From positions 1-33,448 of the IMG/VR virus record IMGVR_UViG_3300050014_000668: a stretch of DNA of 33,448 nucleotides, one strand, 5' to 3'. The notes beneath the pieces are model-generated. The model was not told the DNA's origin. It ran no database searches and saw only the letters and a list, made by a program, of their open reading frames with translations. The DNA comes from a virus. Positions within the stretch are counted from its first letter, which is position 1. Every line of letters starts with the position of its first letter. Positions 2 to 32,133 of this stretch are shown here, one piece after another. Both the position numbers and the translations under genes were made by a program.

Positions 2-508
2 CAAGAAGAAATCAGGATCGCCGCGGCCCATGACCTGAACGTGGCGCCGGCCCAGATCCGTCCCCCAGAGCATCGGACCGACGCACGCACCAAACCGGAG
101 ATCTCTTCCGGGCCTCAAATAGATGAGGCGGTTCAGGGACTCCTGGTGATGGCTGCGCGCGGGGGCGCATACCTCGAATGGGTCCTGGCTATCCCAAAGG
201 CGTGGTGGGAGAACCGGAGTGGGGCGGTGGTGTTGGAGAACATCCTAGACAGGGGAGGCTCCCGAGAAGGGCTCCCGGAGGACCAACAGGCTATCCTGCG
301 CGCCGCCGAAGCGAAGGACGCCACCCAAGCCCAGGCCGATCCCAAACGGATTCTTGCCAGGCTGGAACGGGAGTACCTGCAGCAGGAAGTCGCAGAATTG
401 ACACGCCAGATCAATCAGACAGAGGACGAACAAGCCGGGGAGCAGATGCAGCGCCGGCTCATGGAATTAAGGGCGCGCGCCGCCCGACTCACTAGGGGGG
501 GGAAATGA
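2..508 (+). CDS. DnaG-like primase, C-terminal part (5' truncated by window)
   Basis: The reading frame is open from the left edge of the window, so the gene starts upstream; GTG at 41 is only an internal codon. The visible 168 residues look like the C-terminal helicase-interaction region of bacterial and phage DnaG primases: a helical part (LLVMAARGGAYLEWVLAIP, with a later ILDRGG segment) followed by a charged helix ending in the LEREYLQQEVAELTRQI type seen in DnaG tails. The role would be priming of lagging-strand synthesis together with a DnaB-type helicase. The catalytic zinc and TOPRIM domains are outside the window, so the assignment rests on the tail alone. The stop overlaps the next start by 4 nt, which suggests translational coupling. 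Confidence 0.6.
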   Translation, partial: QEEIRIAAAHDLNVAPAQIRPPEHRTDARTKPEISSGPQIDEAVQGLLVMAARGGAYLEWVLAIPKAWWENRSGAVVLENILDRGGSREGLPEDQQAILRAAEAKDATQAQADPKRILARLEREYLQQEVAELTRQINQTEDEQAGEQMQRRLMELRARAARLTRGGK

Positions 509-852
509 CCCGATTCGTTGGGATCAGACAGAAGTTCGCGATCAGCGGGGCACAAGGGGAACTCAAGGGCTATTTACACATGGATGAGAACCCGGATGGG
601 ACCTTGGCCATGATCTCCATCGAGATCCACAAAGAGGGGACCATGGCGCGGGCCATGGCTCAATCCTTTGCATCCGCAGTGAACATGGGGCTAGAGGCCG
701 GCGTTCCGATCCGAGCGTTCGTTGAAGAATTCCGTGGAACCCGGTTTGAACCATCCGGGGAAGTCAAGGGCAGCCCTTCGATAACCACCTGCACCAGCCT
801 CCTGGATTATGTGGTCCAGGAACTTGAGGCCACCTATCTCGTCAAGGAGTGA
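505..852 (+). CDS. Stand-alone TSCPD domain protein (ribonucleotide reductase C-terminus-like)
   Basis: The 115-residue product resembles the TSCPD domain at the C-terminus of B12-dependent (class II, NrdJ) ribonucleotide reductases. Conserved features are IHKEGTMARAMAQSFASAV, the segment FRGTRFEPSGEVKG, and CTSLLDYVVQELEATYL near residues 93-111. In NrdJ this domain follows the catalytic barrel; here it is free-standing with its own start and SD-like G-run, overlapping the primase stop (ATGA). It has no catalytic barrel and cannot be a reductase alone. It may bind nucleotide or partner a host or phage reductase encoded elsewhere. Family resemblance is clear; the role is inferred. Confidence 0.75.
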   Translation: MTRFVGIRQKFAISGAQGELKGYLHMDENPDGTLAMISIEIHKEGTMARAMAQSFASAVNMGLEAGVPIRAFVEEFRGTRFEPSGEVKGSPSITTCTSLLDYVVQELEATYLVKE

Positions 853-853
853 C

Positions 854-1222
854 ATGAGCAACATCCAGACCGAAAACCAAAAACAAGTGCTTGGAGCCGT
901 CAGGCGCCTTCAAGCGGACCGTGGACGCAGCGTCCTTATCCGAGAGATCGCCGCAGCCCTTGCTCGGCCGATCGCGTCGGTCTATCCGTCCATCCAGACC
1001 CTTGTGGAAGAGGGCACCCTTGTCCGCGGGTTCGCCGGGAGGGGAAAGGGCGTCCGGATCGCCGACACGGACCGGAGATATCGGGAAGGGTGGCAGGATG
1101 CCTTGAACCACATCGAACCCATCATCAACGTCCACCTGCTCGAGCTACATGCCAGCGAGGCGCTCACCGACGTTATCCTTCACGCGATTCATGACGCGAA
1201 AGGTGCCGCAAATGCATCATAA
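854..1222 (+). CDS. Small winged-helix DNA-binding protein
   Basis: The start is ATG 854, preceded by AAGGAG at 844-849 and just after the previous stop. The 122-aa product begins with a helix-turn-helix of winged type: KQVLGAVRRLQADRG, then IREIAAALARPIASVYPSI and a wing TLVEEGTLVRGF. The rest is a helical tail. This resembles MarR- or Rep-type replication and regulatory domains, but no specific family is recognised. Its position between nucleotide and recombination genes and its 11-nt overlap with the following gene suggest one early operon. Confidence 0.65.
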   Translation: MSNIQTENQKQVLGAVRRLQADRGRSVLIREIAAALARPIASVYPSIQTLVEEGTLVRGFAGRGKGVRIADTDRRYREGWQDALNHIEPIINVHLLELHASEALTDVILHAIHDAKGAANAS

Positions 1223-4076: not shown

Positions 4077-5228
4077 TTGAAATCCCCTTTCCCATGGTTC
4101 GGAGGCAAGTCCACGGTGGCCCAGGAAGTCTGGGACGCCTTTGGGGACGTTCGGAACTACGTTGAGCCGTTCTTTGGATCCGGCGCGGTCCTGCTGCTCC
4201 GGCCCCAGCCCTTCACCGGTTCCGAGTCTGTCAACGACAAGGACGGTTTCCTGGCGAACTTCTGGAGGGCCATCCAGGCAGACCCGGAGGCGACCGCGAA
4301 CTTTGCCGACTGGCCGGTAAACGAGAACGACCTCCACGCCCGGCACATCTGGCTCGTCCAGCAGCGTGAAACTCTCACCGCAAGGCTTGAGGGCGACCCG
4401 GACTTCTTTGATCCCAAGATCGCCGGGTGGTGGGTTTGGGGAATCTGCTCATGGATCGGGTCCGGCTGGTGTTCAGGGAACGGACCCTGGTCCATCGAGG
4501 AGGGGCAGTTGACCGATGCCCGCAAGCGTCCCCACCTGGGTAACGCTGGGATGGGCGTGAACCGCAAGCGTCCCCACCTGGGTAACGCTGGGATGGGCGT
4601 GAACCGCCAGCTTCCCCACCTGGGTAACGCTGGGAGGGGCGTGAACCGCAAGCGTCCCCACCTGGGTAACGCTGGGATGGGCGTGAACCGCCAGCTTCCC
4701 CACCTGGGTAACGCTGGGAGGGGCGTGAACCGCCAGCTTCCCCACCTGGGGGACGCTGGGAGGGGCGATGTCATTCTCGCAACCTTCATGGAACTGGCGG
4801 AACGGCTCCGCAATGTTCGGGTGTGCTGCGGCGACTGGACGCGGGTCATGGGCGATTCAGTGACGATCAAACATGGCATCACGGGCGTTTTTCTCGACCC
4901 GCCCTATGCGGATACCGCTGACCGGCAGGAAGACCTCTACTCCGTCGATTCGTCCACTGTAGCCCATGACGTTCGGAAGTGGGCCATTGCCAACGGGGAC
5001 AACCCGTTGCTCCGCATCGCCCTCTGTGGCTACCAGGGGGAACACGAACTTCCCGAAGGCTGGACCTGCCTGGAATGGAAGGCACGGGGCGGTTACGGTT
5101 CCCAGGGCGATACCCGGGGTCGCGAGAACGCCAGCAAGGAACGGATCTGGTTTAGCCCCTACTGCCTCAAGCCATCCACCGAGGCATCCCATCAACTTCT
5201 ATTCGACCAAGACGACCTCGCCGGTTGA
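4077..5228 (+). CDS. D12-class N6-adenine DNA methyltransferase with internal tandem repeat
   Basis: The 383-aa product has the N-terminal PFPWFGGKS (4-12) and FFGSG (32-36) S-adenosylmethionine-binding motifs and DPPYAD at 274-279, the hallmarks of Dam/D12-family methylases. It would methylate adenine in phage DNA, for protection or regulation. The start is TTG 4077, 6 nt after CAGGAG. Between the two motif blocks, codons 149-232 hold six 14-residue repeats of the form RKRPHLGNAGMGVN or RQLPHLGNAGRGVN, encoded by 42-bp units; three copies of the first type are identical at DNA level. The insertion is in frame, so the enzyme is probably intact. Confidence 0.9.
   Translation: MKSPFPWFGGKSTVAQEVWDAFGDVRNYVEPFFGSGAVLLLRPQPFTGSESVNDKDGFLANFWRAIQADPEATANFADWPVNENDLHARHIWLVQQRETLTARLEGDPDFFDPKIAGWWVWGICSWIGSGWCSGNGPWSIEEGQLTDARKRPHLGNAGMGVNRKRPHLGNAGMGVNRQLPHLGNAGRGVNRKRPHLGNAGMGVNRQLPHLGNAGRGVNRQLPHLGDAGRGDVILATFMELAERLRNVRVCCGDWTRVMGDSVTIKHGITGVFLDPPYADTADRQEDLYSVDSSTVAHDVRKWAIANGDNPLLRIALCGYQGEHELPEGWTCLEWKARGGYGSQGDTRGRENASKERIWFSPYCLKPSTEASHQLLFDQDDLAG
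4521..4772 (+). repeat. Six 42-bp in-frame tandem repeats in the methylase gene
   Basis: Units start at 4521, 4563, 4605, 4647, 4689 and 4731. Types run A-A-B-A-B-B'. All A copies are identical, the two B copies are identical, and the last is diverged at GGGGAC and at its end. A and B differ at only a few positions (AAGCG versus CAGCT, GATGG versus GAGGG). Identity between copies points to recent unequal exchange or conversion. Confidence 0.95.
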
Positions 5229-8247: not shown

Positions 8248-8460
8248 ATGACTCTCGGACCCAACGAGCCAACTCACGACCCAATCACCCACCGGCCCAC
8301 CAGGGCATTCATCCAAGCCCAGGCCCAGGATCATGTTGCCTATGGATGGTCCGCTCGTCCCGGCACATGGGATCGCAACATCGAATGGACCGACGAGGAT
8401 ACTGCGATCTACGTGGTCGAATACCGCACCGCCGTCGCTAAAGCGAAAGGGAGATTGTGA
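8248..8460 (+). CDS. Small hypothetical protein
   Basis: ATG 8248 is about 7 nt after AGGAGGG; ATG 8242, which overlaps the previous stop, is only 1-2 nt from that SD and is less likely. The 70-aa product has a polar N-terminus and YVVEYRTAVAKAKG at the end. No family is recognised. Confidence 0.5.
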   Translation: MTLGPNEPTHDPITHRPTRAFIQAQAQDHVAYGWSARPGTWDRNIEWTDEDTAIYVVEYRTAVAKAKGRL

Positions 8461-9407
8461 TGGCCGAGAACACGAAGATCGAGTGGGCCCACCACACCGT
8501 GAATTTTTGGTGGGGCTGCACCAAGGTCAGCCCGGCATGCCAGAACTGCTATGCCGAGGCCCAGGACCGGCACTTCCACCCAGGCCCATATGAGAAAGCA
8601 GAGGCGTCCCATTGGGGCGACAGCGCCCCGCGGATGCTTCGGGTCGAGGCAGCGCGGAAGGAAGCCTTCAAATACCAGCGCCGGGCGGAGAAGGAAGGCG
8701 TCCGGTTTCGGGTCTTCACGAACAGCATGTCGGACTTTTTTGAGGATCGGCGCGACCTTGACCTCGCCCGCCTGGATGCGCTGGACATCATGGCGCAGAC
8801 CCCCAACCTGGACTGGCTGGTACTTACGAAAAGGCCGGAACGGATCATGGACCTGCTCAAGCGGGCCAGCGCCATGGCTGTCCGCACCAGCGGGCTCGCT
8901 GAATTCCTGCGCGCCTGGACGGGGGAGTGGAACTGCGACCCGCTGCCGCCGGCCAACGTCTGGCTGGGCACCACGGTCGAGAATCAGGAGTGGGCCGACA
9001 AGCGGATCCCGGAGATCCTGCGGGTCCCGGCCTCGGTCCGGTTCCTGTCCTGCGAGCCGATGCTGGGACCCATCAATATCAGCCGCTACCTTCCGCGCAC
9101 CCCCGAGAAGCAGAAGGGCACCGAGTGGGATGCATTTGGGATCGACTGGACCATCTGCGGTGGTGAGAGCGGCGCGCGCGCCCGCCCGATGGACGTCAGG
9201 TGGGCCCTGAGCCTGCGCGACCAGTGCGCCGCGGCCGGCGTCCCCTTCCTGTTCAAGCAGTGGGGGGAATGGCTTCCCGACAACCAGAATCCAAGGATCC
9301 CGGGGCCCAGCGGGGCATCCCAGGCGATTCGGGTCGGCAAGGCGCGCGCCGGCCGCCTCCTAGATGGCATGCTTCATGACGGATATCCAAAGGTGAACCA
9401 TGACTGA
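8460..9407 (+). CDS. DUF5131 (phage Gp37/Gp68) family protein
   Basis: ATG 8460 (with GTG 8457 just before) follows AAGGGAG. The 315-aa product opens with TKIEWAHHTVNFWWGCTKVS followed by PACQNCYAE, and later has DWLVLTKRPERI, WLGTTVENQEWADKRIP, RFLSCEPMLGPI, ICGGESGARARPM and FLFKQWGEW, all hallmarks of DUF5131. The C-x6-C-x2-C cluster near the start recalls radical SAM proteins, to which this family is thought to be related. The substrate is unknown. It is common in phages and mobile elements. Confidence 0.9.
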   Translation: MAENTKIEWAHHTVNFWWGCTKVSPACQNCYAEAQDRHFHPGPYEKAEASHWGDSAPRMLRVEAARKEAFKYQRRAEKEGVRFRVFTNSMSDFFEDRRDLDLARLDALDIMAQTPNLDWLVLTKRPERIMDLLKRASAMAVRTSGLAEFLRAWTGEWNCDPLPPANVWLGTTVENQEWADKRIPEILRVPASVRFLSCEPMLGPINISRYLPRTPEKQKGTEWDAFGIDWTICGGESGARARPMDVRWALSLRDQCAAAGVPFLFKQWGEWLPDNQNPRIPGPSGASQAIRVGKARAGRLLDGMLHDGYPKVNHD

Positions 9408-30313: not shown

Positions 30314-31687
30314 TTATGCCTCCTGTGGGGGACGAGCCAGAATGGCCTCGCGGCCGGTAGCATCTGTCCAGCGCTTGACGATCACATCCACGAAGCGAGG
30401 ATCCAGCTCAATGGTGTAGCAGGAGCGGCCCAGAACCTCGCAAGCCATGAGGGTTGAACCACTTCCGGCGAAAAGGTCCAAGACTGTGCCGCGCGGCTTG
30501 GTGGAATTGCGGATGGCACGTCCGAGAAGCTCTACCGGCTTCTGGGTGGGATGGACGTATCCAGTCTCGCGGGAGCAGGTCCAGAGGGTGGTCTGGGAGC
30601 GGTCGCCGTCCCATTCGACTGTCGAGCCAGACTTGAAGGCATAGAAGGCAGCCTCATGGGCAGGGACAAAGACCAAAGGGATGGCATCAGGCGTGTCGTG
30701 GGCGGCAAAAAGGATGGGCTCGTGCTTCCAGTGATATTGGGACCAGCCGAAAGAGGCCTGGGTCTTCGCCCAGATAATCTGGGAACGGACTTCGAGGTGG
30801 GCCTCGTTGAGGGCGTTCTCGAACTCCCTGTGGTAGCGGGAGGGGTAGAACACGTAGCACCCAGCGGATTTCGCTGTGGCGTCGGCGCAGCGGAATGCTT
30901 TGGCAAGGAAGGCCTGGAGGGCGACAGGGTCCAGGGTGTCGTTCTTGATCGAGCCCTTGCCCTGGTCGTTGAGCCCACCCTTGGCTGTGGAGGTGGACTT
31001 GTAGGCCACGCCATAGGGGGGATCGGTGAGCAGCATGTCGGCCCGAGTGCCATCCATAAGCCGGGCAACGTCGGCCGGCGAAGTGGAGTCCCCACAAAGG
31101 AGGCGGTGGTGGCCGAGGATGTAGAGATCCCCCAGCCGGGAGGTGGGCATGGGTGGAAGAGGAGGGGCGTCATCCGGGTCCTTCCCTGGCAAGAGGCCTG
31201 AGCCCGGCTCCTCCGGCTTGAACAGGTCGGCGAGAGCGTCGGGGGAGAAGCCAATGCAGCCGAAGTCGAAATCGTCGGCGTTCAGGAAGGTGAGGCTCGA
31301 GCGCAGCAGCTCGGTGTTCCAGACGGACAGATCGCTCAACCGGTTGTCGGCGATGGCATAGGACCGGGCCTGGGCGTCGGTGAGTCGGCAGAACACGACG
31401 GGCACATTGGGGTCGGCGCCCGCGGCGATCTCAAGGAGGGCCAGGCGCGTGCCATGGCCGGCGACGATTCGGTTGCTCCCGTCCTGCACCATGATGGGGC
31501 GGATCAGGCCGTGGGCCCGGATGGACTTGACCAGCATCGCAATCTGGGCCGGGTCATGGTCCCGGGGATTCTCGTCCCAGGGGACCAGATCTGACAGGCG
31601 TAGGGTGCCGGGGTGGCCGGCGGACATGAGCGCCTCAAGATCCTGGGAAGTGGCAGGGGCTGGATTCAACTTCTTTGTGCGAGCCAT
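30314..31687 (-). CDS. ParB-domain and DNA methyltransferase fusion
   Basis: ATG at 31687 (MARTKKLNP) gives 457 aa; an earlier ATG 31744 overlaps the NinB-like gene more. Residues about 31-115 are a ParB/Srx-like domain (LSDLVPWDENPRDHD, HGLIRPIMVQDG, RIVAGHGTRLALLE). Residues 195-457 are a beta-class amino-methyltransferase: TDPPYGVAY at 221-229 precedes FAGSGSTLMA at 406-415. Adenine N6 or cytosine N4 is the expected target. This fusion is common in phages next to terminase. Confidence 0.85.
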   Translation of the reverse strand: MARTKKLNPAPATSQDLEALMSAGHPGTLRLSDLVPWDENPRDHDPAQIAMLVKSIRAHGLIRPIMVQDGSNRIVAGHGTRLALLEIAAGADPNVPVVFCRLTDAQARSYAIADNRLSDLSVWNTELLRSSLTFLNADDFDFGCIGFSPDALADLFKPEEPGSGLLPGKDPDDAPPLPPMPTSRLGDLYILGHHRLLCGDSTSPADVARLMDGTRADMLLTDPPYGVAYKSTSTAKGGLNDQGKGSIKNDTLDPVALQAFLAKAFRCADATAKSAGCYVFYPSRYHREFENALNEAHLEVRSQIIWAKTQASFGWSQYHWKHEPILFAAHDTPDAIPLVFVPAHEAAFYAFKSGSTVEWDGDRSQTTLWTCSRETGYVHPTQKPVELLGRAIRNSTKPRGTVLDLFAGSGSTLMACEVLGRSCYTIELDPRFVDVIVKRWTDATGREAILARPPQEA

Positions 31688-32133
31688 GCGGGCGGTTCCG
31701 ATCTGTCCGGGAACTGGACGAAATAGGGGGCGTGAGAAAAGCATACCTCTATATCTTGCACGAACTTAGTGAATTCTTTCCGTTTCATGTCGTTCGTCCT
31801 TTTGGGAACCGAACCGAAGACTCGATCGACCCTGGGAGCAAACATTTCGAGCAGCTCTTCATGCCAGACCTTGGCGGCGAACTGGCGGGGCGGAAGTGGC
31901 GCCTCGTCGCTGTCGGGCGTGATCCAGACCTGCTCAGCGATCGGCCGGAGGATGTATCCGCGGTAGTAGCGGATGTGCTCCTCGGATGGGCTGGAATCCT
32001 CAATGGAGATTTCCACCCGGAGGGGATCGTCCTTGTCAGCGAAGCCCTGCCAGAAGTGATCCAGCAGGGCCTTGGCTTGATCGACATCCTGCTGGCGGCG
32101 CAGGACCAGGGCGCGGAAGAAGTGCTCAGACAT
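31666..32133 (-). CDS. NinB-like protein
   Basis: ATG at 32133 (MSEHFFRAL) gives 155 aa; MPM-start at 32139 is possible. The pattern QDVDQAKALLDHFWQGFADK, then YILRPIAEQVW, FAAKVWHEELLEMFAPR and KRKEFTKFVQDIEV resembles NinB/Orf-type recombination proteins, where a W-H-E/D helix precedes an EF-x-x-F/Y helix. It could bind single-stranded DNA. The match is by eye and moderate. Confidence 0.45.
   Translation of the reverse strand: MSEHFFRALVLRRQQDVDQAKALLDHFWQGFADKDDPLRVEISIEDSSPSEEHIRYYRGYILRPIAEQVWITPDSDEAPLPPRQFAAKVWHEELLEMFAPRVDRVFGSVPKRTNDMKRKEFTKFVQDIEVCFSHAPYFVQFPDRSEPPAWLAQRS

Follow-up and report, generated by a model that had tools for sequence, protein, structure and literature searches.

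What can the C-terminal part of a ribonucleotide reductase (RNR) do in a virus when the rest of the enzyme is missing? The question is raised by a short gene preceded by 504 bases in a viral sequence of 33,448 bases, hereafter the window, which comprises a whole IMG/VR record classed as linear and is probably a fragment.

A detached TSCPD domain

The gene product had initially been annotated as a TSCPD domain of class II RNR. The Pfam model TSCPD (PF12637) matched residues 21–109 at 31.7 bits (E 2e-7), above the curated cut-off of 22.8, and NCBIfam NrdJ models matched the protein by their C-terminal part: PRK07562 by positions 976–1081 (E 5.6e-25), PRK06556 (E 2.8e-20) and, as a third model, PRK08665 (E 0.046). 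These matches uphold the assignment. When three NrdJ/NrdJa proteins were compared with the whole window by tblastn, only the segment 505–852 rose above noise (at best 50.9% identity, E 2e-24; next match in the window, E 0.42), and the catalytic barrel PF02867, sought across the whole window, was absent, as had been claimed. The frame runs intact from ATG to TGA, in line with a separate gene of 115 aa. Alphaproteobacterial NrdJ was closest to the window protein (51% identity); i.e., the parent type of the domain is an alphaproteobacterial-type class II RNR.

The description of TSCPD as the C-terminus of NrdJ held in part: the domain does belong to the C-terminal part of the enzyme, but it is not the last element. 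A long class II C-terminus consists of an IscU-like domain followed by a zinc finger with a cysteine pair, and NrdJb consists of an IscU-like domain and a zinc finger (PMC9669993); the IscU-like domain of that report probably corresponds to Pfam TSCPD. The window protein stops 3 residues past its last NrdJ-matched residue, has no zinc-finger/redox tail and contains one cysteine, C96. We thus confirmed that the window gene encodes a complete detached TSCPD domain, cut from both the barrel and the zinc-finger/redox tail.

Genes around the TSCPD gene

The gene lies in a tight arrangement (Table 1), and the downstream frame begins 1 base past its stop. The ATGA overlap suggests translational coupling with the upstream frame, and the G run is a possible ribosome-binding site, judged from position and composition. 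The upstream 168-aa piece matched no primase in NCBIfam, Pfam or PHROGs (E ≤ 1) and gave no tblastn match in 50,697 phage records (E ≤ 0.01); the placement of the TSCPD gene behind a primase is therefore unsupported. A frameshifted NrdJ frame next to the gene, the case that had been weighed against a free-standing domain, was not found inside the window, since the upstream frame has no RNR similarity.

Table 1. Features at the beginning of the window
Feature	Position	Strand	Basis
Upstream frame, 168 aa, open at the window edge, no family match	2–508	+	
G run just before the TSCPD start codon	495–502	+	Sequence
Free-standing TSCPD (IscU-like) domain gene	505–852	+	Pfam, NCBIfam, AlphaFold, Cys count
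ATGA overlap of upstream stop (506–508) and TSCPD start (505–507)	505–508	+	Sequence
PF12637 model match, six-frame search	565–831	+	
Downstream gene, 122 aa, weak winged-helix match	854–1222	+	Pfam

Several other genes of the window stood out. Two genes past the TSCPD gene, a Ref-like RecA-dependent nuclease is encoded (1212–1817, +; PF16786, 55.9 bits). A DNA methyltransferase frame of 383 aa (4077–5228, +) has a D12-type match at residues 7–72, near-identical repeats (PHLGNAGMGVNR...) in the middle of the protein and then more methyltransferase-like sequence. A 316-aa phrog_2045 protein of unknown function (8457–9407, +) has relatives in 143 phage records from very different hosts. A 476-aa protein (30314–31744, −) joins an N-terminal part that matches ParB-like partition proteins to a C-terminal part that matches DNA methyltransferases. 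A late-gene stretch showed DNA similarity to two phage records, over 3% of the query, and the terminase had remote matches, at best 28% among the matches listed; no close relative of this phage was found. No tRNA gene was found in the window.

Free-standing copies in other viruses

Viral loci were gathered from IMG/VR with the peptide pattern S[VMT][AG]LQ[HY]G[VA]P; the census therefore misses divergent, window-like copies. The widest scan yielded 41 viral loci with the domain, whose reading frames comprised 15 free-standing copies, 23 intact NrdJ (859–1703 aa) and 3 cut by contig ends. The 15 free-standing loci represent 14 distinct proteins, as L048 and L049 encode the same one. A CxxC motif after the domain was present in none of the 15 free-standing copies, compared with all 23 intact fused proteins (one or two each). 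A sixteenth free-standing copy, of 156 aa, was found in MW202622, whose annotation describes a complete circular phage genome. PF02867 was absent from all 17 whole records with a free-standing copy (the window, the 15 loci and MW202622), most of which may be fragments and some of which are large, up to 279 kb. When viral contigs were scanned with the window protein as a single query sequence, 13 pattern matches were obtained, none of which was confirmed. Two free-standing copies have peculiar frames: L070 (7515–8315) carries an extra N-terminal stretch in frame, its true start being unsure, and L069 (6990–8378) has a CPKC motif inserted near the domain start that is absent from the other free-standing copies.

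The trees, built on 120–122 columns, were weakly resolved; starred branches force at least five or at least four changes between the free-standing and fused states among phages, and parsimony counted eight such changes in both trees. The window protein forms a long branch (1.55 and 1.76 in the two trees). It falls close to NrdJ of alphaproteobacterial type and to other free-standing copies, in a position that is not precisely fixed, and groups with the NrdJd type apart from NrdJb (support 100/100). The window gene is one of a recurring class of detached TSCPD proteins that lack the tail.

All-against-all blastp of the neighbours revealed no gene common to all free-standing phage copies, and little sharing apart from a few replication and structural genes. 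PHROG scans covered 30 neighbouring frames at 14 loci, many frames being without a match and no control set being included. Helicase and HNH genes neighbour L048; an exonuclease and a thymidylate kinase flank L057, one on each side; DNA polymerase and clamp loader genes neighbour L071. An Erf annealing protein is encoded near L077, a DprA-like protein near L069, a transposase near L083 and a terminase near L072. Methyltransferases adjoin the L053 and L084 copies, a transcriptional regulator also adjoins L053, and dUTPase and DNA polymerase genes lie near the MW202622 copy. These neighbours hint at an early replication setting for the free-standing phage copies.

Bacterial copies beside class II and class I enzymes

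Nearly all cellular copies outside the detached cases were either joined to a class II enzyme or had its gene next to them. When genomes were scanned with alignment A3, the best 80 of 595 loci were all in frames of at least 500 aa, i.e., fused, and plasmid tblastn gave 16 records, mostly full NrdJ by annotation and position. G322:C12 (E 6e-8) was tried as a TSCPD locus and rejected, as no convincing TSCPD frame was seen on inspection. The HMM of A3 did not match NrdJb-type proteins; therefore, copies of the NrdJd and NrdJb types were handled apart.

PF12637 was detected in 112 of 150 genomes of one phylum, in many cases as frames of about 200–300 aa. We read 20 chosen places from 14 of these genomes. 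An nrdJa-like frame was found in the same stretch at 13 places, and all 13 encode NrdJb ending in a CxxC tail. Five places (L175, L177, L179, L185 and L188) have neither a tail nor an adjoining nrdJa; the four genomes that hold them each contain a single PF02867 protein, which is an NrdJa, and lack PF00268. The remaining two, L187 and L191, have the tail, and L191 is at a contig end. At L175, L179 and L185, the tail-less NrdJb-like gene heads a cassette with DUF2924, a serine recombinase, a ParB-HTH protein and a 67–79-aa protein; a LexA gene on the opposite strand adjoins this cassette at L179 and L185. L188 follows a Toprim-AAA_25 protein, with a GTA-type holin nearby.

In one class (190 genomes), A3 matched 118 genomes, in nearly every case through a fused NrdJ. 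G173 and G254 contain TSCPD frames of 282 and 278 aa, respectively, together with a class-I-sized large subunit only and PF00268. G055, G311 and G256 contain TSCPD frames of 530–667 aa, and elsewhere in the genome a class-I-sized large subunit and PF00268; the G256 frame keeps a weak barrel match (8.5e-10) and looks like an NrdJ in mid-loss.

Retention of the domain in a streamlined bacterial order

G254 belongs to an order with small genomes (58 genomes, 1.0–1.5 Mb; about 28–33% GC at the fetched loci), which is perhaps SAR11-like. Fused NrdJ was found in 29 of these genomes and a detached TSCPD gene only, with frames of 273–294 aa, in 27; two had neither, and of these G360 holds a PF02867 protein of class-I-like length, whereas PF02867 was absent from G373. 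All 27 genomes with a detached copy hold a single PF02867 protein, which is of class I size (645–669 aa). PF02867 proteins were tested in 4 of the 29 fused-NrdJ genomes and occurred only as NrdJ of 1203–1213 aa; PF00268 was tested in one genome of the order, G254. Small-genome bacteria that swapped a class II for a class I reductase thus kept the TSCPD domain. As 27 of 58 genomes keep it with a class-I-sized reductase, the domain is useful without a class II barrel, and because every one of them has only a class-I-sized PF02867 protein, that barrel cannot be its sole partner.

Homologues of the L199 neighbours (448, 127, 119 and 595 aa) were present at 19–21 of 22 detached loci, and the same neighbours flank nrdJ in the same order at all four fused loci fetched. 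That is, the detached gene sits at the former nrdJ locus where this was read. The 22 detached proteins read were 21 of the 27 copies of the order and L198 from G173; 21 of them lack the tail, and L198, a separate event on the tree from the copies of this order, keeps a degenerate one. The median Nei–Gojobori dN/dS was 0.042 in the domain versus 0.397 in the rest of the protein, as calculated from the 64 of 231 pairs with 0.05 < dS < 1.5, which share branches and are not independent. The detached domain in this order is under strong purifying selection.

Predicted structure and departures from the family

The AlphaFold model of the window protein was confident (pLDDT 93.1, pTM 0.86); the predicted structure of the L007 NrdJ had a pLDDT of 86. 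At E ≤ 0.001, BFVD returned three phage proteins, all named reductases, and the top two structural matches, of 184 and 136 aa, are named ribonucleoside-diphosphate reductase. PDB sequence searches with the window protein and with A3 found no relative (best 3lcr, E 2). The best IscU match to the model in Foldseek had E 0.48. In VIA, the match to IscU (1q48) had Z 5.7 and an rmsd of 3.9 over 95 residues, level with unrelated folds, and that to SufU (Z 4.9) was no better than unrelated folds. The weak predicted likeness to IscU/SufU agrees with PMC9669993, although unrelated folds reach the same scores.

The window copy departs from the family at position 36, which is Glu in all 37 other aligned rows, and at G35 and F38; it also departs at S60 and Q64, both fixed by the search pattern. 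It keeps L63, G66, P68, F81, P83, G85, S98 and D101, the first three of which are part of the viral search pattern. The constancy of S60, L63, Q64, G66 and P68 in alignment A4 is therefore partly built in; E36, G35 and F38 lie outside the pattern. Position 64 of the window protein is Glu, and it is conceivable, as speculation, that Glu64 compensates for the lost Glu36. Given the departures at E36, G35 and F38, the window copy may no longer do the job of the parent domain; it is a derived copy whose function may have shifted, e.g., to that of a decoy.

Possible roles of the window protein

We tentatively propose, with slightly less than even confidence, that the window protein is a non-redox binding partner that acts on host dNTP synthesis by docking on the host reductase. 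The domain identity, the predicted fold, the missing barrel and tail, the recurrence, and the barrel-independent retention under selection in bacteria are established above; we infer that the partner is a reductase, as well as the direction of the effect. The protein would work in trans as a non-catalytic, protein-binding subunit on deoxynucleotide synthesis during phage replication. Its docking site would be the large subunit of the host reductase, much as the related NrdJb of Pseudomonas attaches to the barrel subunit close to the rim of the active-site cleft (PMC4520616), and docking would alter the assembly or activity of the reductase without passing electrons. The predicted fold, the reductase matches in BFVD, the loss of the tail, the absence of a barrel from all 17 records and the replication neighbours support this proposal, as does the binding of NrdJb to NrdJa in a split class II enzyme, where the apparent Kd is 54–690 nM and NrdJb is needed in vivo (PMC4520616). 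We also counted in its favor the five tail-less copies in genomes with NrdJa and no PF00268. Counted against it were the class-I-sized PF02867 proteins in 27 of 27 genomes, the departures at E36, G35 and F38, and an observation on the S. nassauensis enzyme: when its Cys-rich domain was missing, the separately expressed domain, not necessarily including TSCPD, restored no activity (PMC5704485).

Ranked next is an RNR-independent role, which we consider possible but unlikely on balance: TSCPD would have its own job apart from reductase catalysis, such as nucleotide sensing or a link between dNTP supply and replication, and NrdJ would merely carry it. The retention of the domain alone at the old nrdJ locus with a class-I-sized subunit, its low dN/dS, the second, separate chromosomal case (L198) and the replication and recombination genes adjoining several phage copies favor such a role. 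However, the domain may instead have switched to the class I enzyme, and the association of nearly all other cellular copies with a class II enzyme points away from an independent job. We know of no nucleotide-sensing or replication-adaptor activity of TSCPD. A broader view, to which we give a similarly limited probability, is that TSCPD serves dNTP supply as a detachable module tied to no one reductase class, either as a regulator or as a replication adaptor. Class II reductases would merely happen to carry it; bacteria would keep it on swapping class II for class I, and phages would have excised it repeatedly for use on the host.

It is improbable that the window protein is a decoy inhibitor, i.e., that it replaces the native C-terminal part on a host class II enzyme, blocks turnover and thereby hinders the host or a competing phage. 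A barrel subunit without its tail-bearing partner is only slightly active with DTT and does not sustain growth (PMC4520616), and a decoy would fit this, as it would the missing redox tail of the window copy and of all 15 free-standing viral copies and the loss of the otherwise constant Glu36. However, the tail-less form is also kept by bacteria that have no class II enzyme to block. In addition, phages usually gain from more dNTPs, not fewer. Still less probable is that the gene is what remains of a phage nrdJ, decaying and without present function. Its long branch and lost family-constant residues would be expected of such a fragment; however, the frame is intact with tight neighbours on both sides, the fold is confidently predicted, the eight family residues listed above are kept (three of them in the search pattern), and many separate phages keep such genes. 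Finally, that the gene is the second half of a split NrdJ with its barrel gene upstream of the window, as the initial annotation had allowed, is very improbable: split nrdJ is known in Pseudomonas (PMC4520616) and a few phages (PMC3653736) and the record is a fragment, but the gene lacks the redox tail in which all 13 NrdJb fetched beside an nrdJa-like frame end, and no barrel occurs in the 17 virus records, including the circular MW202622, although most may be fragments.

If TSCPD is indeed a class-independent module, the function of the long C-terminus of NrdJ would be separable from catalysis and tail reduction. The phages and the one bacterial order are natural separation experiments, in which the domain stands by itself and is conserved although both the barrel and the redox tail are gone, and the detached copies are small proteins for testing the role of the IscU-like domain. 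Short proteins (about 110–300 aa) annotated as "vitamin B12-dependent ribonucleotide reductase" are not necessarily a sign that DNA synthesis depends on B12.

Comparison with known systems

The TSCPD domain, the split NrdJb, the IscU-like prediction and deposited short phage proteins called reductase were already known. In the literature searched, which took in few subscription papers, we found no description of a tail-less detached class in phages or of retention at the nrdJ locus after a switch to class I. IscU has three conserved cysteine ligands; the window protein has one cysteine and so cannot have this ligand set, in contrast to the IscU/SufU scaffold. The C-termini of class II enzymes have been reported as IscU-like, and the same report states that no role of this domain is described in the RNR literature (PMC9669993).

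Compared with NrdJ (dimeric class II with a long C-terminus, NrdJd), the window protein shares a homologous TSCPD/IscU-like domain at up to 51% identity; however, it is encoded by a separate gene without the barrel, and without the zinc finger or redox cysteine pair that the majority of dimeric NrdJ carry at the C-terminus. NrdJb of Pseudomonas aeruginosa and other Proteobacteria (PMC4520616) likewise has TSCPD apart from the barrel, whereas it carries the zinc-finger/redox tail and its gene adjoins nrdJa, neither of which applies to the window gene within the window. PHROG 23565, "ribonucleotide reductase" (199 positions), is also a free-standing phage TSCPD without a barrel, but it gave no match to the window protein at E ≤ 1. 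The MW202622 gene, annotated as "vitamin B12-dependent ribonucleotide reductase", is free-standing too, at about 30% identity. Free-standing TSCPD copies are thus not rare and include NrdJb as well as tail-less phage and bacterial copies.
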